Shown here: one piece after another, positions 3,290 through 46,460 of the stretch | Numbering within the stretch: the first letter of the stretch is position 1 | Layout: every line of letters starts with the position of its first letter | Source: Bdellovibrio svalbardensis | GTDB taxonomy: Bacteria; Bdellovibrionota; Bdellovibrionia; Bdellovibrionales; Bdellovibrionaceae | Assembly (NCBI RefSeq): GCF_029531655.1 | Contig: NZ_JANRMI010000001.1 | Location: 1 to 64,000, forward strand | Length of the DNA: 64,000 nucleotides | Reading direction: 5' to 3' | Translations under genes and position numbers: made by a program | The notes under the pieces: model-generated | What the model was told of the DNA's origin: nothing | The model's input: the letters and a program-made list of their open reading frames with translations, nothing else | Database searches by the model: none

Positions 3290-3313
3290 AATCTTCAATA
3301 TTTTTTTATAACC

Positions 3314-5143
3314 TTAGTTATCAACGAAGTTTTTCAACTTGTTGCTGCGAGAAGGATGACGAAGCTTACGAAGAGCCTTCGCCTCGATCTGACGAATACG
3401 TTCACGAGTTACGTTGAAGTCTTGCCCCACTTCTTCCAACGTGTGATCCGATTCTTCACCGATACCGAAACGCATACGAAGAACTTTTTCTTCTCTTGGA
3501 GTCAAAGTCGAAAGAACACGGCGAGTTTGTTCCGCCAAGTTCAGGTTCACAATCGCTTCTGCAGGATTGATCACCTTTTTGTCTTCGATAAAGTCGCCCA
3601 AGTGTGAATCTTCTTCTTCCCCTACTGGAGTTTCCAAAGAAATCGGCTCTTTTGCGATTTTCAAAACTTTACGAACTTTGTCTACCGGCATGTCCATTTT
3701 ATCAGCGATCTCTTCAGGGGTTGGCTCGCGGCCAAGCTCTTGAATGAGGTAACGAGATGTACGAACAAGCTTATTGATAGTCTCGATCATATGAACAGGG
3801 ATACGGATCGTACGCGCCTGATCGGCAATCGCACGAGTGATCGCCTGACGAATCCACCAAGTTGCGTAAGTCGAGAATTTGTAACCACGACGGTACTCGA
3901 ATTTATCAACGGCTTTCATCAAACCGATGTTACCTTCCTGGATCAAATCCAAGAATTGCAAACCACGGTTCGTGTACTTCTTAGCGATCGAAACCACGAG
4001 ACGAAGATTCGCCTCTACCAACTCAGATTTCGCTGCATCGGCCTCACGCTCACCTTTCCAGATGGCTGTGTATGTTTCTTTCACCCAAGTGTGATTCATT
4101 TCAGTTTCTGAATCCAAACGCTTGATACGGACTTCAGCTTCTTGAGCCTGGATCACGTAAGATTTGTACTTTTGATAGTTCAAACCTGTATCGCGAGTCA
4201 TTCTTGTTAATTCTTTTTCATTCGACTCAACAAGCTTCATACGCTCAATCATCGATGCAACGTCTTTAGAGAACGTGCGCTCAACACCGTCTTTAATACG
4301 ACGACGAAGAGTTCCGATACGACCTACCAAGTTTTTGAACTTGATCACGATACGGTTGATGGTTTTACGGTTGAAGTTCACTGATTCAAAATTCGCCATC
4401 AACTTGTCATTCATTAGAACAAGTTCTTTCATGGCTGCTTGACGAGCAGGCGTGTTCGTTTCTTCTTTACGAAGAACTTCGAACTGCTTCGCTGAGGCTT
4501 TTTGGTACTCAGTGACTTTGCCGATCAATTCATGAATTTTGTCGATGTACTCTTTTTCATCGTACTGAGTGTCTTCGTCCTCAAGACCACGGAAGATCGC
4601 CTTAACTTTGATACGTCCTTCATCAAGACGTTTACCAAGTTGGATGATCTCGTAAGTTCCCAAAGGAGACAAAAGGATCGCACGAACGATCTCGCGCTCC
4701 CCTTTTTCGATACGACGAGCAATCTCAACTTCACCCTCACGAGTTAGAAGCGAGACGCTACCCATTTTACGCAAATAAAGACGAACAGGGTCATTGCCCT
4801 TAACGTCTTCGCTTTCAGCTTTTTCTTCTTCATCTACTTCTTCGTCGTCAGAATCAGGGCTTTCAAGGAATGAACCTTCGCCTTCTTCGTCTTTCGAAGT
4901 TTCAGACAAGTCTGAAATTACTACACCACCAGCCTCTAGGCCATGCATGAAGGCATCTAGAGCTGCGGGGGCGATAATTTCAGGAGGAAGGAGGTCGTTG
5001 ATCTCTTCGATCGTCAACGCGCCTTTCTCTTTTGCAAGCTTCAGAAACTTCTGAATTTCTTCTTTAATTAGAAGTTCTTGTTCCTGCAAAGAAAGAACTT
5101 TTGTAGGTTCTTTCTCTTGTTTGTTTGGTAGGTTTTGTTTCAT
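3314..5143 (-). CDS. rpoD: RNA polymerase primary sigma factor RpoD (sigma-70)
   Basis: The product (about 609 residues) has all regions of a group 1 sigma factor in order: an N-terminal region 1.1, an acidic stretch, region 1.2 ([12 protein letters not shown]), a long non-conserved spacer, region 2 with [34 protein letters not shown] and [12 protein letters not shown], region 3 ([13 protein letters not shown]) and region 4 with the helix-turn-helix [23 protein letters not shown] at 5143 is preferred over TTG at 5146, as it is five bases from GAGG. It follows dnaG by 13 nt and ends the macromolecular-synthesis operon. It directs core polymerase to housekeeping promoters and is the partner expected for the 6S RNA in this window. 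Confidence 0.98.
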
Positions 5144-24469: not shown

Positions 24470-25093
24470 CTACTGAAGGGCTTCACCATTTGAATTGAGG
24501 ATGTCTTGATCGCCACCACCCTGATCTGAAGGGCTGCGAATTGGCGTGACTGAGAGAACTTTAAAGTCTTCACCTATCTTCACTTTATATCCACCACGAC
24601 GAGCATTCTCTATAAATTGACGAACGTACTCTTCTTTGTAGGCTTTCGAATACTCTGCCTGCTGCTGCTGATTGAAGAGTTCTTTTTGAACGACGTCATT
24701 GGGATTTTCAAACGACTCTGCTCGTTTATCTCCGCGCCCTAGCTCATTGGCAATTTCAGCAGCACGGGAATCACTTGATAGATCCACACCGCCTTGCGGA
24801 GGTGCATAGACAGGCTGAGCGGATGTCGCATCAAAGTCTTTCGCCAGTCGGGCGTTTTCAATCTCCATGCGTTGACGAGCCATCGCCATGGTTTCATTTG
24901 TCACCATAAGATGCTTGTTCACGGCTTTCTCATACTTTTCGGATTTTACTGTGGCAGAGATTTCTGCAAATTTCTTTTTTGTTCCGTCAGAACCCAGATA
25001 AAGAAATGCCATAACTCCTGCTCCCAAAAATAGAAGCAGAGCCAGAAGTTTGGAACTATCCTTTTCTTCCTTGTTGGCATTCTCGGATGACAT
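24470..25093 (-). CDS. Membrane-anchored protein of unknown function
   Basis: The 207-residue product has a short cytoplasmic N-terminus, one membrane helix at about 16-33 (LLALLLFLGAGVMAFLYLG) and a helical, Gln/Glu-rich periplasmic part (SEKYEKAVNKHLMVTNETMAMARQRMEIENARLAKDF). It has no motif I can name. ATG at 25093 has AAGG five bases upstream and is preferred over the longer frame. It converges on the RadC-like gene with three bases between stop codons and no terminator. Confidence 0.75.
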   Translation of the reverse strand: MSSENANKEEKDSSKLLALLLFLGAGVMAFLYLGSDGTKKKFAEISATVKSEKYEKAVNKHLMVTNETMAMARQRMEIENARLAKDFDATSAQPVYAPPQGGVDLSSDSRAAEIANELGRGDKRAESFENPNDVVQKELFNQQQQAEYSKAYKEEYVRQFIENARRGGYKVKIGEDFKVLSVTPIRSPSDQGGGDQDILNSNGEALQ

Positions 25094-25207
25094 AGAAACC
25101 TTATCGGAGAATATGAGAAAAGCCTTTAGTCCCAATGAAATGGAACACATAGCTAACCGGAATCAACTTAAGTGGTGTCAGCGTATTAAGGTCGGGTGTC
25201 TATGAAT

Positions 25208-25236: not shown

Positions 25237-25341
25237 CAAAAGAATCATATTCCATTAAAAACCAGTAAAGATACTGGCACGAGTAGTGAATTAGGGTCTT
25301 CATGTCTAGTGTTGAATAACAAAACCGAAAGGATCCCTCAT

Positions 25342-25836
25342 ATGCATATGAAATCTGTTAAATTCGCGGCAGCCCTCTTATCAACTATGGCTGTTGGAAC
25401 TTCCGCAATCGCTGCTTATGGACCGACTGGCACTCTCACGATCTCTGGAGTTGTGACGGCTGTGACCGAACTTGAAGTGACTGCTGCTCCAGACGCCACC
25501 ACGTTGAATATCCTTGCTGGCGAAACGGACAAGCTTGTTGCTTCTGTTTCTGAAAGATCAAACAACATCGGTGGATATAAAGTGACATTGACCTCTGTGA
25601 ACAATGGCCAGTTGGTGAATGGCGCGAATGCAACCTTAAAGACAGCTTACAAAATTGGCTACGACGGTGGAACGAAATTGAGTCTTACTAACTCTGCAAC
25701 TCAAGTTAAAAACGTGACGGCGTTAACGGGTCTCACGACTGTAGCTTCTGCGATGAGAGTGGAAGTAACAGCTTTGCCAACGGCAGCTGCTGGTACTTAC
25801 TCTGATACCATCACTGTTGCGATCACTGCGAACTAA
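25342..25836 (+). CDS. SCPU-type pilin subunit (archaic chaperone-usher pilus)
   Basis: The product (164 residues) has a signal peptide cleaved near SAIAA and a single immunoglobulin-like domain of the spore coat U / Csu pilin type: an N-terminal strand GTLTISGVVTAVTELEV, a central GGYKVTLTSVNNGQLVN and a C-terminal strand AAGTYSDTITVAITAN. Such subunits lack their last strand, receive it from a chaperone and then polymerise by donor-strand exchange. AAAGGA lies eight bases before ATG 25342 (a second ATG follows two codons later). It faces the tip/usher/chaperone operon and shares its terminator, so its dosage can be set separately. Confidence 0.85.
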   Translation: MHMKSVKFAAALLSTMAVGTSAIAAYGPTGTLTISGVVTAVTELEVTAAPDATTLNILAGETDKLVASVSERSNNIGGYKVTLTSVNNGQLVNGANATLKTAYKIGYDGGTKLSLTNSATQVKNVTALTGLTTVASAMRVEVTALPTAAAGTYSDTITVAITAN

Positions 25837-25858
25837 GAATTTCTTTTATTGAAAAAAC

Positions 25859-25889
25859 AAAAAGCCACCTCATAACAGGTGGCTTTTTT
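25859..25889. terminator. Bidirectional terminator between pilin and tip-adhesin genes
   Basis: Stem aaagccacct / aggtggcttt with a six-base loop, A-run on one side and T-run on the other. It touches the stop codon of the minus-strand gene. Confidence 0.93.
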
Positions 25890-26809
25890 TATTCCGTCGT
25901 TTCAATCGTCAACTGAACTTGATCGCTGTAGGCTCCGGCCTTTACATTCCCAAAGTTTCCTATGGTCACAGTGATAGGAATAGAGGTTCCCGACGCTGGA
26001 GAGACCCCAAATACGCGATAGAGTTGTTGTGGACTTGTTGTCAAACCCACGGTGTCGTTATTGAATTTGATCGTGTACGGAATATATTGCGCATCAGTTT
26101 GATGTTTGAGTCTTCCACCATTTGTCGAAGAAACATAAAGAGTATAGCCCGCATTGTACTTCATAACTGCACTGGCTGACCGAGTAGCTCCCGCCGAGAG
26201 TGTACCAAAGTTCATCACTTCATCCGTGTCGCCCAATACAAATGCACCACCCGAGGCCACCATGGAAACGTCGACTCTCTTTGGTGCATTATAATTCAGT
26301 GAGATGAGGCGTGAGGAAACGAAGCTATAGTTGGACAAAGTCCCTCTATACAGATGAGCACTTATGTATTCAGTGTAGTTTCCGAATCGCAGCCATGGGT
26401 TTGTCATATTCAAAGCCGCCCAATAAGAAACATTCACTTGAGCGTCGTTATTTCCATCAGGCAGAGTTCCACTAAGAATGTCACTGTTGCTGGAAGCATC
26501 CGTGACGTTCTTGATAATATTCACCCCCGCAGAGTCCTTATAAACCTGATAGGGCCATTCATAGCCTGACATTTTGAGACTGCGATTCACATAAGAACTG
26601 GAATAACCGTAATCAAACACAATGAAGAAATCACAGCCGCCGGGATTGGTGTTGGCTTTGACCGTGAAAGTTCCTTGAAACTGAGGATTGGATGTAAAAT
26701 CAATGTTGGTTTGCCCCGTCTGCAGTTGCATATTTACGCACGGAGCTCCCAGAGCATAACTCGAAAAAATGGTTCCCAAAATTAAAATCACAGAATTAAG
26801 AGTTCTCAA
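25889..26809 (-). CDS. SCPU-domain tip/adhesin subunit (CsuE-like)
   Basis: The 306-residue product has a signal peptide (to SYALGA) and two beta domains: an N-terminal one with Cys pairs (CVNMQLQTGQTNIDF, GGCDFFIVFDYGY) and a C-terminal spore coat U domain (NFGTLSAGATRSASAVMKYNAGYTLYVSSTNGGRLKH ... GAYSDQVQLTIETT, quoted in parts). Two-domain subunits of this kind are tip adhesins in Csu-type pili. Its start overlaps the usher stop by four bases. It is the last gene of the chaperone-usher-tip operon. Confidence 0.82.
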   Translation of the reverse strand: MRTLNSVILILGTIFSSYALGAPCVNMQLQTGQTNIDFTSNPQFQGTFTVKANTNPGGCDFFIVFDYGYSSSYVNRSLKMSGYEWPYQVYKDSAGVNIIKNVTDASSNSDILSGTLPDGNNDAQVNVSYWAALNMTNPWLRFGNYTEYISAHLYRGTLSNYSFVSSRLISLNYNAPKRVDVSMVASGGAFVLGDTDEVMNFGTLSAGATRSASAVMKYNAGYTLYVSSTNGGRLKHQTDAQYIPYTIKFNNDTVGLTTSPQQLYRVFGVSPASGTSIPITVTIGNFGNVKAGAYSDQVQLTIETTE

Positions 26810-29226
26810 TCTTCGCCTCCGGTCTTAACCGTGATATTTCCAAGGTCAATGACACTGTCTGGGCTCTCTTTAACTTGCACTGTTACAGAAGATAGGTCAG
26901 GACGATCTGTTACAATTCTATATTCGCCTGGTTCAAGACCTTCGATCAAGAAGCCACCCTCTTTGTTTGTAAAAAAGCTGTTGTCCACAAGGCGGCCCTT
27001 GGCATCTATGACATCTCCAGCAGCATAAGACAGCACTTCGCCATTTTCTTTAACGAGGCGCCCTTTCACCATCACTTTGTGTGTAAAGTTCAGCGAGATC
27101 AAGATACCGCTACGATATGTTGGCTGAATGCCGTAATACTCTTTTTCCAGCAAATAACCCGGGGGCAATGAAGTCGAATCTAAATTCACAAGGTATTTGT
27201 AGTAAGCTGTTTGATCTTTAAGAACCGTCGATGAACGAGGCCCCAACTGAGCTTCCCCGCGAGTCCCATTCGGATTGATGATCAGCTCTTGACCATCTGG
27301 AAAATTATTGGCAGCCACCAATACAAAACTATCCGTGATTGGTTGAGTAAAGGCCCCATGACTTCCGACCCAAGCAAAGCCCGTATTGATCCCAAGGGTG
27401 GTGATATTGTTGGTTGTACTGCCAATTTGGGTTGAGTATTGATCCAAGCGCAAACTCGCCGGCTGAGTAAAGTACTCTGCAGACAAGCTCTCTTGAGTGT
27501 TCATCTCGTTATTCTGTATCGACGCTGAAGCCCTGAAGTCATCATACTTCGAAAGATTATTTTTGCTTAGAGTGACATTGGAATTCTTTTGTTGAGAGTC
27601 ATAGAATGAACTTGCGCTGTACCGGCCCTGAAGTTCATTCCAGAAGAATGAAATGTAACCGCGATCATCCACAGCGTTATCCACAACCTTATTGTAACTC
27701 ACTTCGACGCGACAATTCCCTGCGAGAGGAAAAATGACGTTGGCGCGGTACAATCTTTGATCCGCGGTATTGCGCTGTTCAAGGTAGCTACCACCGATTC
27801 CGATAGTCCAATAAGATCCGGGACGGAAATTCAGTTGTCCGTCATAGCGACGTAGAAATGTTGAAGGCACCAGGTTGTTCGCCGATACCGGATTAAAATC
27901 CTGATCGTGATTTTCAGATTCCAAAGTCAAAGTGACAGGCATGTCCACACCGGCCATACGATCCAAAGTGCGGTACCTAAACTTCTCAGCATATCCCTTT
28001 TGACTGGAAGTCTGCGCCGAGTATGCCACGTCCGCAGAGAGATATCCCCAATTGGTGATTCCAGAAGCCTCAACACCCGTAAGCGATTGTGAAAGGTAAT
28101 TTTGATAATTAAATCCTACGGTCAGTTCATCAGAAAGACCCACGCGATGAAAGGCATTCGCAAAGACAGCATCTTTCACATAGGCGCGATCGGCACCTGA
28201 TTCAGTCCACGGAGCCCCCGCGCCATAAGAAAACTCCTGCACCCCTTTGGGAAGAATGCTGTTTTCAAATAAAACTGAAAAGTCGTAAATTTCTTCCTGG
28301 CCAAAATTATCGCGCACCTTAACTTTCACATTGTTCTGACCAATTGCCAGAGGGAAATCGCGAATGTTGAAGACCCCAGGGGCCAGACGCATTTGACTGT
28401 ACATGAAGCCGTTTACATACACTTCAACCTGCGATGGCCGTTTAATCACTATTTCTGTGGAACTGAGAGGGCGCAAAGTTTTATATGGCTGAATTCCAAA
28501 CTCTCGCACCAATGAGAATCCCGCCATATTGGGAGCCATTTGAAATCCCCGGGAAGTCAGAGTTAAATCACCCAAGGTATAGCGATTCATGCGCTGTTCA
28601 TCATCCCAACGAAGACGTGTGTCCTGTCGCTTCCAGGGATGGTCATCCTGCTCAAGGTAGTCCGCCATGCTTTCCAGAACGAAACCATGGATGTTTTCTA
28701 CAAAGTCGACGTGGCCGGAAAGAGGAAGCTTCTTATTTTCCGTATTCAATGACCCGTACTGATAAGACTGATTAAAACGAAAATTCAAATAACCACTTTG
28801 CTGACTGGGTCTTAAATATTTTTGATTTCCGTCATCGAAGTAGTTTAAGTCGACGTCGTTACTGCGACGATACTTTAACGGAAGATCCAGACGCAGCTCC
28901 AAATTGGCGTCGTTAAAATATGCTGAAACACCCGAGGCCTTCAGATCGCGCATCGTGATCACTCTCTCCGAGGTGACTTTCTGTTTCAAGTTGGCAAAAA
29001 GATCTTCCTTCATTCGCATTTGCAAAACCTGCAATAGAGGCTCTGCTTCTATTGAGAAATCACGATCTGTATCTCGTGGAAAAATCCAGGCTTCCTCGAT
29101 GACCGCTCCATCTATTACGATCGGCGCCACCACATAAGGCTTTGCCAAAGCAGGGCGAGGACCCACCGCTTGAGCCGCTAAACTAGATAGAAACACAAAT
29201 AGAAAAATAAAAGGCAGAATCCTCAA
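26806..29226 (-). CDS. Outer-membrane fimbrial usher (Csu/PapC-like)
   Basis: The 806-residue protein has a signal peptide, an N-terminal periplasmic domain, a long beta-barrel region and a C-terminal domain. Family marks include GDLTLTSRGFQMAPNMAGFSLVREFG, VEVYVNGFMYSQMRLAPGVFNIRDFPL and GQNNVKVKVRDNFGQE around the plug, and a C-terminal GRLVKENGEVLSYAAGDVIDAKGRLV region (each a part of longer motifs). Ushers take chaperone-subunit complexes and pass the growing pilus outward. It overlaps both neighbours by four bases, so chaperone, usher and tip are translated together. Confidence 0.93.
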   Translation of the reverse strand: MRILPFIFLFVFLSSLAAQAVGPRPALAKPYVVAPIVIDGAVIEEAWIFPRDTDRDFSIEAEPLLQVLQMRMKEDLFANLKQKVTSERVITMRDLKASGVSAYFNDANLELRLDLPLKYRRSNDVDLNYFDDGNQKYLRPSQQSGYLNFRFNQSYQYGSLNTENKKLPLSGHVDFVENIHGFVLESMADYLEQDDHPWKRQDTRLRWDDEQRMNRYTLGDLTLTSRGFQMAPNMAGFSLVREFGIQPYKTLRPLSSTEIVIKRPSQVEVYVNGFMYSQMRLAPGVFNIRDFPLAIGQNNVKVKVRDNFGQEEIYDFSVLFENSILPKGVQEFSYGAGAPWTESGADRAYVKDAVFANAFHRVGLSDELTVGFNYQNYLSQSLTGVEASGITNWGYLSADVAYSAQTSSQKGYAEKFRYRTLDRMAGVDMPVTLTLESENHDQDFNPVSANNLVPSTFLRRYDGQLNFRPGSYWTIGIGGSYLEQRNTADQRLYRANVIFPLAGNCRVEVSYNKVVDNAVDDRGYISFFWNELQGRYSASSFYDSQQKNSNVTLSKNNLSKYDDFRASASIQNNEMNTQESLSAEYFTQPASLRLDQYSTQIGSTTNNITTLGINTGFAWVGSHGAFTQPITDSFVLVAANNFPDGQELIINPNGTRGEAQLGPRSSTVLKDQTAYYKYLVNLDSTSLPPGYLLEKEYYGIQPTYRSGILISLNFTHKVMVKGRLVKENGEVLSYAAGDVIDAKGRLVDNSFFTNKEGGFLIEGLEPGEYRIVTDRPDLSSVTVQVKESPDSVIDLGNITVKTGGED

Positions 29227-29957
29227 TCACCAAGCTCCGCAAACTCAAGCTCTGCTTTTACACCTTGAGGAATTTCTTTGGATAAAGTCAGAGTGACAGT
29301 CTTTTCGGTCTTAGCCAAAAGATTCAAACCCTCAAATTCTTTGGGATCGGCGATTTCCATCACGATTTTATTGCCAGAAACAAGTTTCAACTTTTTTGTG
29401 TGAATCACCTTGTGAGCCGTGCCTTCATTGACCAAAGTCACCAGCACTTTTTTCGGGCCAAGTACTTTGGTCTCTTTCACTCTCACCTTGGCTGCGGCAT
29501 TGCCGGGAGTGACGTAAGCGGATGCTACATATTGCAGAAGAAAATTCAGACTGACGCCGGGTTTTTTGGATTTTGCATTTTGCTCTTTAAATTCAACGGG
29601 AATTTGTGAAACAACGATGCGATATGATTTCTCATCGTCTCCTTTAAATTCCCCGGCCCAAGTGACGCGTACATTTCTTTTTTCGTTGGGAAGCAGAACC
29701 ACCTGTTCAGGATAAACATTAAAGTCCGAACTCTTAACTCGAACCTCTTCCCCTTTGGCGTCCACCCCACGCGTGAAAACCTCTATCTGCACAGGAATCT
29801 TTTCGGAATCTGGATTTTCCAAAGTCAAAACCTGCGTCGATTTGCTTCCTGAAGGCGCAAAATAGATCACCATCGGTGACATCTTAAATGCGTAAGAAAA
29901 GACCGGAAATAAGAAAAGAAACGATATAAAAAAGAGTCTTAAAAACTTTCTTTGCAT
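29223..29957 (-). CDS. Periplasmic pilus chaperone (PapD/CsuC-like)
   Basis: The 244-residue product has a signal peptide and two Ig-like domains. MSPMVIYFAPSGSKSTQVLTLEN and PNEKRNVRVTW are the typical N-domain strands of PapD-type chaperones; the C-domain ends VKAELEFAELGD. It would stabilise the pilins by donating a strand and deliver them to the usher. No Shine-Dalgarno sequence is seen before the ATG. It is the first gene of the three-gene operon. Confidence 0.92.
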   Translation of the reverse strand: MQRKFLRLFFISFLFLFPVFSYAFKMSPMVIYFAPSGSKSTQVLTLENPDSEKIPVQIEVFTRGVDAKGEEVRVKSSDFNVYPEQVVLLPNEKRNVRVTWAGEFKGDDEKSYRIVVSQIPVEFKEQNAKSKKPGVSLNFLLQYVASAYVTPGNAAAKVRVKETKVLGPKKVLVTLVNEGTAHKVIHTKKLKLVSGNKIVMEIADPKEFEGLNLLAKTEKTVTLTLSKEIPQGVKAELEFAELGD

Positions 29958-30055: not shown

Positions 30056-30280
30056 CTAAGGAGCCGTGGCACTTACGACGGAAGCCGGTCCTCTGCGAGT
30101 CATTTGGATTTTAAGCTTATCAGGAGAGTTCTGTTTGATGGCGACTTTGCCTGCAGATGAAGCCTTTATTTCAATATCTCCACGCAATGGAACTGTGCCC
30201 GCAATAAACAAACTTTTTGAGTTTGCCTGTGCGGTCAAAGAACCTACTAAAATTGCTGTGAACAATATCGCGAGCCTCAT
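30056..30280 (-). CDS. Small exported protein, pilin-like N-terminal strand
   Basis: The 74-residue product has a clear signal peptide (MRLAILFTAILVGSLTAQA) and about 52 mature residues. The mature start LFIAGTVPLRGDIEIKA has the same pattern as the first strand of the SCPU pilin (TISGVVTAVTELEV), but the rest of the domain is missing, so it may be a remnant or a stand-alone donor strand. It lies 98 nt upstream of the chaperone gene on the same strand. The site AGGA before the start ATG is inside a perfect hairpin (30281-30300). Confidence 0.65.
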   Translation of the reverse strand: MRLAILFTAILVGSLTAQANSKSLFIAGTVPLRGDIEIKASSAGKVAIKQNSPDKLKIQMTRRGPASVVSATAP

Positions 30281-30300
30281 AGTCTTCCTATCGGAAGACT
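30281..30300 (-). promoter_or_regulatory. Hairpin with the ribosome binding site of the small exported protein
   Basis: Perfect 8-bp stem agtcttcc / ggaagact around a four-base loop, directly before the start codon of the 74-residue gene and 12 nt after the kinase stop codon. The 3' arm on the minus strand includes AGGA. It may block translation, or serve as an mRNA end structure for the kinase operon; there is no T-run. Confidence 0.5.
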
Positions 30301-30311
30301 AGACTAAAGCT

Positions 30312-32279
30312 TTAGGACGTTAGTTGGGGATGCTTATCTTGTACTGGTGGGTAAACTGGGATAATTACAATAAATTCAGTACCTACGCCCACTTGTGATC
30401 GCACCTGAATCTCTCCGCCGTGATTTTGAACAATGCCGTATGAAATACTTAAGCCCAACCCTGTACCTTGTCCCACGCCTTTAGTCGTGAAGAATGGATC
30501 AAAGATCTTCTCAAGAGTTTCCGCGCTCATGCCCTTGCCACTGTCTTGAACTGAGATTTGCACCCAACCCGTTTTATCTTTCGAACCTTTATAATCTTTC
30601 AACGCCATCGTTGAAATCCACACATGCCCCTGCCCGTCGATGGCCTGAACTGCGTTGGAAAGAATGTTCATAAAGACCTGATTCACTTGGCTCGCATAAC
30701 AATGCACCAACGGTGTTGGTTCATACTGTCTGTGGATTTCAATACGATTTTTAATTTCACCCTGCAAAAGATTAAGAGTGGTATCAAGACTTTGATGAAC
30801 ATCAATCTCTTGCAACTTCGCTTCTTCCAAGCGTGAGAAATTGCGCAAGCCTAAGACGATATCGCGAGTTCGGCGAGCTCCGTCCTGACAGGAAGAAACC
30901 AGTTTCGGCAAATCTTTTACGATATAGTCGAACTCGTATTCCTCTTTTAAGGCTGTTAGCTTCTTAGGATCTTTTTCTGCGACATCCGCAATCTCAATCA
31001 GCTTTTCCGAGTAGTCTTGAAGATGAGTCATGTTGCTGTAGATAAAGCCAATCGGATTATTCAGCTCATGAGCCACACCAGCAACAAGTTGCCCCAGGCT
31101 GACCATCTTCGCTGAATGAACCAGTTTTGTCTGAGTGTCTTTAAGCTCTTTATTTGCTGACTCAAGTTCTGTGATTTTTTTGCGAAGATCCGATCGGGCA
31201 GTCCAAATCTTCTTACTCATCTCGTTAAAGCTTTCGGTCAACAGACCAATCTCAGTGTCATTCTTCACTGGAATTGTGACTGCCTGCTCTTGGGATTCGA
31301 AAGACTGAAGAGCTTCCACAAGATCATAAAGTGGTTTAAGCACCCAACTTGAAGTCACCAGGATTGTCAGAATAAGCAAAACAACGACAGCTCCGACGAC
31401 AGTCATGAAGGTGTAGTTAACGTTTTTCAAGACGGCAATCGCTTCAGATTTAGAGGCGCCTAGAGCGACGTAAAATTTCGTAATACCCCAATCAAGTGGG
31501 TAAACCAAAAATCCGTAGGGATTTCCACGCACATTCAAATCAAAGAAGGGCTCTGCACCTGGTCGGAAATAATTTTTAAAGAAATCTTTTTTGTAGAGAT
31601 AAAAGTCAGGATGACTTGCGACAACCACTTGGCCGTTATCTTTAAAAAGAATCAACTCCAATTTCAATCTATTCTTAATTTTTGAAAGAAAGTCTTTATT
31701 CAAATCGACGATTTGTTCGATATAACCCACAGTGCGCCCGCCAGCAGCCGTCACTTTTGAGATCAAAATCAAATTGAGCTTTTGGTTTTCAGTAAATTCC
31801 GCAAGACTGATTTCTTTACTGTCTTTCAAATCCGCCATGTACTTCGCTGACAGAAAAACCGCATCTTGGACAGGAACAAAACTTCGGACGTTTTCTTTGT
31901 CATCTTTGAAGACAGACGCCAGCATGCGACCTTCTCTATCAAAGAACGTTAGGCTGGAAATCCCATCGGATTTTAACCATCCGGAAGAGAGTCCTTTAAG
32001 AGTCGCGCCATCGCCTATCGAGATATGGTAGGTTAGACTTGGATCCCGAACATAACGATCTCTTTTTTGCAGAAGATTCGTTTTATAGTCATTAAGGATG
32101 ATTCCAATTTCACGGGCGTTTCCACTCAAGCGCTGAGAAAGCTCATGGTCGATGGCCTTTTCATACTTGATCATGGAGTATCCGGTAACGAAGGCCAAAG
32201 GAACAACGGAGAATAGGACGAACCAAACGATTAGAATCGTTCTTAATGATCGCTTAGGTTTACGTCTTGATGTTTTCAC
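30312..32279 (-). CDS. Membrane sensor histidine kinase
   Basis: The 655-residue kinase has a membrane helix at 12-35, an extracytoplasmic sensor region of about 250 residues with dCache-like character ([31 protein letters not shown]), a second helix at 289-312, a HAMP segment to about 366, a coiled coil, the phospho-acceptor His404 ([13 protein letters not shown]) and a complete ATPase domain: [35 protein letters not shown]. It overlaps the upstream anti-sigma-like gene by four bases (ATGA). No response regulator is adjacent. It is tied by operon structure to the sigma-like pair and mreB. Confidence 0.95.
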
Positions 32280-33247
32280 TTTTTAGCTTCATCCACAGTC
32301 AGAATCAGACGAATGATTCCGTCAGGCATCACACGCGGATGTTTTTCTTTTCCGATGTGAACCTTCCCGTAGGTCGCAAGATAGTTTGAAAGTTCCTGAT
32401 ATTTCGCCTGAGGAATTGTGAAGTGATAGTACATTGACTTGGATGTCTTCTGCCAACCAAGCTCTACCCCACCGGCTTTACGACCGCCCAATTCAATAAT
32501 TTTATCGGTGATCTTAGGGCCGACTACCGCCAGGTTGGTCACCCCGATATCACCACGGAAAAGAAATCCACCAGAACCCGCAGGCGCAATATCAGATTTC
32601 TCTTCTTCCATCTTTGCCACCGCGGTCGGTGACGGAGCTGGAGTCGGAACTGCTTTCACTGGAACCGCAGGTGCCGCCGGAACTTTCGCTGCTGTTGCGG
32701 CAGGCTTTGGAGTTGGCGTCACCAAAGGTTTCGCCGTCTTAGCATCTTCATCCACAAATTGTGGTTTTTCCTCAATCGGCTGTTGAGCTGTTTCGGTTTT
32801 AGAAACTTCCGCCAACACAACTTCTTTAGAACCGGTCGAAATACCCATGTTCAAAAGTTTCTGCCACGGAGCAATCGTCAGAACGGAAACAATCACCGCA
32901 ACCACGACAAGAGCTTCAAGACCCCACTTCAAACCTTGAGGCCATTTGTCGAAGTTCGACTTCTGCATCAACGTTGTAAGATAAGTCGACGTGGTATTGA
33001 TTTGTTCAATGATTGGTTGAGAAACGATGGTGTTAGCCAACTGACTTGCGTAGGCATCTCCATTTTGGATTTTATTAAGATCCAACTGTGCATCACGAGA
33101 GTATTTAACATGATCAGCAACTGCGCTTGAGCGCTCCTCATCGAGCATCCCAGAGAGATAGTCATAAAGAAGCTCATGCCCGATAAAGGGAGAAATCTCC
33201 CTCTTGCCTTTTTTTGAGAACGGAATCTTATTTTCCTGCTGAGCCAT
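32276..33247 (-). CDS. Anti-sigma-factor-like membrane protein without zinc cysteines
   Basis: The 323-residue product has an N-terminal helical segment (residues 24-55, HELLYDYLSGMLDEERSSAVADHVKYSRDA) laid out like the zinc-binding anti-sigma domain, but the HxxxCxxC positions read HVKYSRDA, so zinc binding is lost. A single membrane helix lies at 109-127, followed by a Pro/Ala/Lys-rich linker (170-215) and a C-terminal domain ending in [11 protein letters not shown]. It overlaps the sigma-like gene by 20 nt and the kinase gene by four. Membrane-bound sequestration of the neighbouring sigma factor is inferred from pattern and context. Confidence 0.75.
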   Translation of the reverse strand: MAQQENKIPFSKKGKREISPFIGHELLYDYLSGMLDEERSSAVADHVKYSRDAQLDLNKIQNGDAYASQLANTIVSQPIIEQINTTSTYLTTLMQKSNFDKWPQGLKWGLEALVVVAVIVSVLTIAPWQKLLNMGISTGSKEVVLAEVSKTETAQQPIEEKPQFVDEDAKTAKPLVTPTPKPAATAAKVPAAPAVPVKAVPTPAPSPTAVAKMEEEKSDIAPAGSGGFLFRGDIGVTNLAVVGPKITDKIIELGGRKAGGVELGWQKTSKSMYYHFTIPQAKYQELSNYLATYGKVHIGKEKHPRVMPDGIIRLILTVDEAKK

Positions 33248-33698
33248 GCTTTAGTTTACTCACACCTTGGGTCATCGTTCCTAGTTTGCGTAAAGATCTT
33301 CCAAGACGATAACGAATCGTGCCTGAAGTGATCCCCAGCCCCTCTGAGATATCTTGATCATCAATTTTTAAAATTTTAGACCAAATAACTGTTAAAAGCT
33401 CGTCTTCAGAAGCAGTCTTCTGAAATTCACGCCATGGGCCTAGATCGACACCCTCTGGAACAAGCCAGCCGGATTCGACGGTGGTGTTAGGACGTCCACG
33501 TGCTACGCGCACTTTGAACTTATCCCAAACAGCTTTGGTTGCGGAAACCAAAGCCACTGAGTTTTTAATTTCTGGATTTCGTTTTTTCTTGTCTAGACAA
33601 ACGGCTAGGGCTTGAGTCGAAGCCTCGATCGCCTTTTTATCATCTAGCAAAGCAAAGTAGAAGAAGAGTGCGATCGATTGAATGTCAGCTTCGGTCAT
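33228..33698 (-). CDS. Divergent ECF-type sigma factor
   Basis: The 156-residue product ends with a good sigma region 4 helix-turn-helix: SEDELLTVIWSKILKIDDQDISEGLGITSGTIRYRLGRSLRKLG (shown here by its key parts). The N-terminal part (ALFFYFALLDDKKAIEASTQALAVCLDK) resembles the helices of region 2 but is weakly conserved. Length is slightly short for an ECF factor. It begins 10 nt after the mreB stop codon without a clear ribosome binding site, and overlaps the anti-sigma-like gene by 20 nt. Promoter targets are unknown; envelope or shape stress is a natural guess. Confidence 0.75.
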   Translation of the reverse strand: MTEADIQSIALFFYFALLDDKKAIEASTQALAVCLDKKKRNPEIKNSVALVSATKAVWDKFKVRVARGRPNTTVESGWLVPEGVDLGPWREFQKTASEDELLTVIWSKILKIDDQDISEGLGITSGTIRYRLGRSLRKLGTMTQGVSKLKHGSAGK

Positions 33699-46277: not shown

Positions 46278-46283
46278 TGTTTC

Positions 46284-46460
46284 TAGGGTTCGACGGCGTA
46301 AAGCTCATCGAAAATAAACCTTACAAGCATATTTTTGGGGACTGTCCCTGATGATGGTGAGCAAGCTCAGCTCGTACTGAGAAGCCTAAAGTCGTTATAA
46401 TGGTCACCCACCTTAGCTACTGGGTTTACTTTTCAGAGTGGCCTTCGAGCCTTTTTTTTT
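46284..46460 (+). ncRNA. ssrS: 6S RNA
   Basis: The region folds with a closing helix GGTTCGA-x-GGC (from 46287) paired to GCC-x-TCGAGCC (to 46451), followed by a nine-base T-run. Its middle contains GGTGAGCAAGCTCAG, then CTGAGAAGCCTAAA, which matches the conserved segment of E. coli 6S RNA (GGTGAGCATGCTCGG, CCGAGAAGCCTTAAA). Length is about 175 nt. 6S RNA imitates an open promoter, binds RpoD-polymerase and lowers sigma-70 transcription in slow growth. From 46205 to 46598 nothing else was found. Confidence 0.9.

Follow-up and report, generated by a model that had tools for sequence, protein, structure and literature searches.

The analysed window, a stretch of 64,000 nucleotides of the Bdellovibrio svalbardensis genome to which all of the coordinates refer, contains a set of five genes that encode a pilin, a tip adhesin, an usher, a chaperone and a small secreted protein, which is termed SMALL here. 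Four of them lie at 25342-29957, which was the extent that was given in a preliminary description of this DNA. Those four genes are real, but this extent was too narrow because it left out the fifth conserved gene at 30056-30280 as well as the sites at 30289-30314 and 25275-25290. The genes of the module, its sites and the two flanking genes are as follows:

24470-25150, minus strand, membrane-anchored protein tm226, right border, outside the module; it adjoins HK at empty sites
25275-25290, plus strand, TGGCAC-N5-GTGAA element upstream of the pilin, conserved in the genus
25342-25836, plus strand, major pilin candidate, SCPU-like, 164 aa, with a signal peptide and no cysteine; assigned from a weak SCPU match, synteny and co-loss
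25859-25888, no strand, shared bidirectional terminator hairpin between the stop codons of the pilin and the tip; its stem-loop is symmetrical and has an A-tract and a T-tract
25889-26809, minus strand, two-domain tip adhesin, CsuE-like (SCPU E 3.3e-8, in two stretches)
26806-29226, minus strand, outer-membrane usher, 806 aa, intact (PF00577 E 7e-14)
29223-29957, minus strand, PapD-like periplasmic chaperone (PapD_N E 5.7e-9)
30056-30280, minus strand, SMALL, a candidate secreted mini-subunit of 74 aa, the ORF between HK and the chaperone
30289-30314, minus strand, FliA (sigma28)-type promoter-like site TAAAG-N15-CCGATA, which begins in the HK stop codon
30312-32279, minus strand, histidine kinase HK, left border, outside the module; it is kept in module-less genomes

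The tip, usher and chaperone genes are on the minus strand with 4-nt overlaps at both the chaperone/usher and the usher/tip junctions, and thus the tight operon that had been described was confirmed from the gene coordinates. The pilin gene converges on them from the plus strand. The terminator that had been proposed to be shared by the convergent genes corresponds to the hairpin listed above, and a similar hairpin is present in the pilin/tip gap of the relatives. The matches of the usher, chaperone and tip all passed the Pfam cut-off, which supported the earlier assignment to an archaic chaperone-usher set. The usher, whose integrity had been singled out as decisive, is unbroken with zero internal stops, could be aligned with 13 relatives along its full length and is the sole usher of the 3.9-Mb genome, in which the proposed search for other SCPU genes found no further ones. 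The pilin is more divergent. In the window it matched SCPU with an E of 0.044, which is under the Pfam cut-off, while SCPU was matched by 6 of the 16 pilin orthologues (best E 4.3e-5). The best PDB match of the pilin profile was a weak one (E 0.21) to the SCPU chain 8cio, which we take to be the CupE pilus, and the profile also matched CsuA/B. Moreover, the pilin gene always adjoins the module and is lost together with it. The AlphaFold model of the tip, which was based on six sequences, had a pLDDT of 88.5; Foldseek matched it to CsuE (6fjy_D, E 2e-9), which was listed beside CfaE/CfaB, and VIA-align gave a Z of 10.1 over 228 residues against CsuE and a Z of 12.4 for the N-terminal domain against self-complemented CsuA/B. 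Because of this model and the CsuE matches, the two-domain tip adhesin is well supported, and by analogy with CsuE, a function in attachment or biofilm formation is plausible. A foreign base composition of the island was ruled out, as its GC content (43-46%) was equal to that of the flanks.

The locus appears to encode an archaic chaperone-usher pilus, which is a known kind of system that is rearranged here and that carries an undescribed mini-subunit. It resembles the Csu pilus of Acinetobacter baumannii in its archaic chaperone and usher, its CsuE-like two-domain tip at the end of the operon and its candidate SCPU-type rod subunit. Unlike in Csu clusters, in which the pilin and the machinery have the same direction, the window pilin is convergent, being on the opposite strand and downstream, and it has no cysteine. 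While Csu has the full-size adaptors CsuA and CsuB, no full-size adaptor pilin was found between the major pilin and the chaperone in the window, where the 74-aa SMALL alone occupies this place. The CupE pilus of Pseudomonas aeruginosa likewise combines an SCPU pilin, a chaperone, an usher and a two-domain tip, and differs in that its single gene cluster includes two full-size minor pilins and that CupE1 contains a disulfide (PMC10104325).

Co-occurrence of the genes in relatives, which had been set beforehand as a test of the assignment, was observed: 14 relatives have the module at one site, with ushers that are 51-74% identical. Throughout the genus, SMALL is followed by the chaperone, the usher, the tip and the convergent pilin, and the flanking genes are HK and tm226 in every case. 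The location of the pilin on the opposite strand, to which the preliminary description had drawn attention, is therefore true for the window but not unique to it, as it is genus-wide and other forms occur elsewhere in the phylum. In genera g10 and g17, the pilin, a SMALL-like ORF, the chaperone, the usher and the tip all have one direction, and the simplest reading of these gene orders is that the pilin moved and flipped on the line to the genus and g11. A detached pilin appears to be recurrent since opposite-strand pilins were also found in the loci L116, L118, L119 and L131 of the phylum. The last of these (G125) has two opposite-strand pilins upstream, and its chaperone gene follows the tip gene. 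Additionally, a second, partial and distant usher was detected on another contig of G036 (L043, 8025-9713).

In seven genomes of the genus, G003 among them, all five genes are missing and HK adjoins tm226 at a distance of 32-106 nt. The tree of the flanking genes required at least six changes in the presence of the module, five of which were forced by well-supported branches. At the empty sites, the left junction was the HK stop codon each time, and therefore repeated deletion and recombination within the conserved flanks are equally likely causes. HK was rejected as a component of the pilus system because it is retained where the module is lost; together with an anti-sigma-like protein and a sigma-factor-like protein, it belongs to a conserved block downstream of mreB (30312-33698).

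The preliminary description had also proposed that the pilin has its own control. This was supported, as a conserved element that is distinct from the one of the operon was found upstream of the pilin gene. A scan of the region for sigma70-type promoters yielded fewer sites than the shuffles and none just upstream of any gene here. The pilin element, in the form [CT]GGCA[CT]-N5-[GA]TGAA, precedes the pilin in 13 of the 15 genomes of the genus, and 12 of its 13 matches in 598 kb of loci were upstream of a pilin. In the window's own genome, the pattern occurred 11 times compared to three for the reversed control. Its spacing resembles that of the sigma54 -24/-12 promoter, with the GC of the sigma54 -12 box replaced by GA in nearly all of the copies. 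Elsewhere in this genome, the element lies 40-59 nt before a lipoprotein gene (L173) and a gene for a secreted protein (L175); the remaining copies fall inside genes, and these sites did not point to a particular regulon.

The operon is preceded by the FliA-type site, which was kept in all 15 carriers of the genus and was absent at all seven empty sites. The form shared by the carriers is TAAAGCTTT-N-GTC, which is followed by CCGA 15-16 nt from TAAAG and lies about 10 nt before SMALL. In G020, another genome of the genus, the contig with the usher is truncated; this genome shares the promoter-like site and yielded a partial match to SMALL on a different contig. A comparable motif, TTAAG-N16-CCGATA, was found at 92 of 140 attack-phase promoters by Karunker et al., who ascribed it to FliA (PMC3627812). 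The pattern is not rare in the window's own genome (8 matches compared to 5 in the reversed control), and therefore the case for a FliA promoter rests on its conservation at this place. SMALL, the chaperone, the usher and the tip would thus be transcribed in the attack phase from this predicted promoter, and since the start codon is very close to the -10 box, the leader of SMALL would be very short. CCGATAA-like boxes were also seen just before tm226 at the empty sites and in several carriers, which suggests that tm226 may be under a FliA-type promoter as well; the window copy reads TTCCGGTTA instead.

The preliminary description, which was limited to four genes, overlooked SMALL. The protein has a signal peptide, an L.I.G.VP motif (LFIAGTVP in the window) and the terminus ATAP. 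It was found in all 14 genus genomes (including the window) that were readable at that end as well as in genus g11, and more distant members of the family have versions of 95-106 aa between the pilin and the chaperone. A family-wide protein search detected SMALL in 15 genomes, every one of which was an usher carrier; the carrier G007 was missed by this search and has SMALL by synteny. At the empty sites it was lost together with the rest of the module. SMALL evolves fast, with 43% identity to the nearest relative compared to 73% for the usher, and its dN/dS between relatives (0.08-0.28) indicates purifying selection. Searches against Pfam and NCBIfam revealed no convincing family, there was no match among the PDB sequences and the AlphaFold model (pLDDT 49.5) was uninformative.

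A likeness to the pilin was nevertheless found at the N-terminus. Using hhalign with motif-trimmed sets, the first 21 mature residues of SMALL were aligned with the donor region of the pilin (E 7e-4), while beyond these residues the likeness was weak. When 3514 ORFs were searched without trimming, pilins accounted for 10 of the 13 top other matches, mostly at their N-termini. A score above 5 bits with the profile of the mature pilin was reached by 23% of 62 signal-stripped SMALL sequences, by 0.8% of the shuffles and by 3.6% of the shuffles that kept the donor motif (first 11 residues), although these percentages do not represent independent trials because the sequences are related. The mature length of the 62 sequences was 50-117 residues (median 65), and their C-termini were usually AP, AN or HP, those of the pilins being mostly AN. 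With only about 54 mature residues, a full Ig fold is unlikely for SMALL of the window.

An archaic-type usher was present in 92 of the 369 Bdellovibrionota genomes. A contig scan with the single window usher as the query gave no match, while a scan with the usher alignment returned six loci, one of which was a distant Sulfurimonas usher. Among the 55 loci outside the family that had a readable chaperone, a SMALL-like secreted ORF of 74-132 aa was located upstream of the chaperone in 43, and in most cases it lay between the pilin and the chaperone; about ten of these loci had fed the profile and about 33 had not. In the remaining 12, no SMALL was found by the same profile test. In G015, SMALL and the chaperone are separated by a strong terminator-like hairpin (L025, 6911-7069), and therefore SMALL may not always share the chaperone transcript. 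The locus L118, the pilin of which is divergent, has a full-size, pilin-like secreted protein of 184 aa that ends in TVAAP in the position of SMALL (about 3299-3853), and it is possible that this protein represents the ancestral form of SMALL.

Based on these sequence comparisons, SMALL looks like a shrunken minor pilin of about 50 residues that kept its donor-strand end, and it probably ends or anchors the fibre at its base. We consider it quite likely that the five genes of the window locus make up a chaperone-usher pilus island of the archaic (Csu/SCPU) type, in which an operon that would be expressed in the attack phase includes such a mini-subunit. To our knowledge, no terminator of archaic pili has been described. 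The closest likeness for the proposed fibre-ending role is with the terminators FimI and PapH, which are also extra, low-copy subunits that are encoded with their machine. Both of these terminators, however, have a complete Ig fold that lacks a P5 pocket (PMC10673952), and SMALL is too short for such a fold. According to the known pathway, the subunits would enter the periplasm and bind the chaperone, after which the usher would assemble them tip first through donor-strand exchange, giving a thin fibre on the cell surface with a tip that would stick to surfaces or cells; SMALL would be handled by the same chaperone and would act at the pilus. As the pilin would be under separate control, the length or the number of the fibres could be adjusted without a parallel change in the machine. 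For type 1 pili, the fibre length is set by how much rod subunit there is relative to the terminator FimI (PMC10673952), and by analogy, having the pilin under its own control and the mini-subunit in the operon of the machine would permit a similar length control. A bolder proposal, which we regard as rather unlikely, is that SMALL represents a new subunit class that consists of a donor strand and a short remainder, caps the fibre and terminates archaic chaperone-usher pili throughout the phylum. If true, the pilin-to-cap ratio would set the fibre length, with the pilin being on a separately controlled strand.

Its shortness, fast evolution and poorly predicted structure could also mean that SMALL is no structural subunit and instead assists the chaperone or the usher in the periplasm, in gating or priming, or that it is a decaying duplicate of the pilin. 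This alternative is somewhat doubtful, and decay in particular is disfavoured by the dN/dS values given above and by the retention of SMALL across the phylum. SMALL might instead be an adaptor near the tip that joins the tip adhesin to the rod, as was described for CsuA and CsuB (PMC9452303). It sits between the major pilin and the chaperone in the operon order, which is the place of the minor pilins in related clusters, and the full-size ORF ending in TVAAP in L118 would fit such a role. An adaptor, however, requires a groove in addition to a donor strand, and a mature protein of about 50 residues is too small for a pilin Ig fold, which makes this reading unlikely. We favour the shrunken minor pilin at the base of the fibre. 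As for the function of the pilus, a role in prey recognition or invasion could be read from the attack-phase FliA-type site upstream of the operon, but this is unlikely: no fimbrial genes are present in HD100 (PMC3539863), a proficient predator, and the module was lost frequently and is dispensable for predation, given that seven members of the genus are without the whole set. The pilus may have a role in prey range or on particular surfaces. That the island is an inactive remnant, as its frequent loss in the genus might imply, is very improbable, since none of the full carriers examined has an interrupted gene in the module, purifying selection acts on SMALL and the promoter-like elements are conserved.

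In the genome of B. bacteriovorus Tiberius, inserted PapD and PapC genes (Bdt0200 and Bdt0201) were reported with no fibre subunit recognised, and the authors suggested a novel one (PMC3539863). These genes are very likely the same locus as the window module (carrier G009). In contrast to that account, a pilin, a tip and a mini-subunit were assigned here, and they can now be named as candidates for the missing fibre parts. Because the module is naturally present or absent between close strains, with G009 carrying it and G003 being empty, its role in attachment is directly testable. The fibre genes and the mini-subunit are good targets for studying predator attachment and fibre termination, and the recurrence of the mini-subunit across Bdellovibrionota could show how archaic pili stop growing. 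Elsewhere in the window, a 6S RNA was detected on the plus strand at 46282-46457 (Rfam RF00013, E 2.7e-12).
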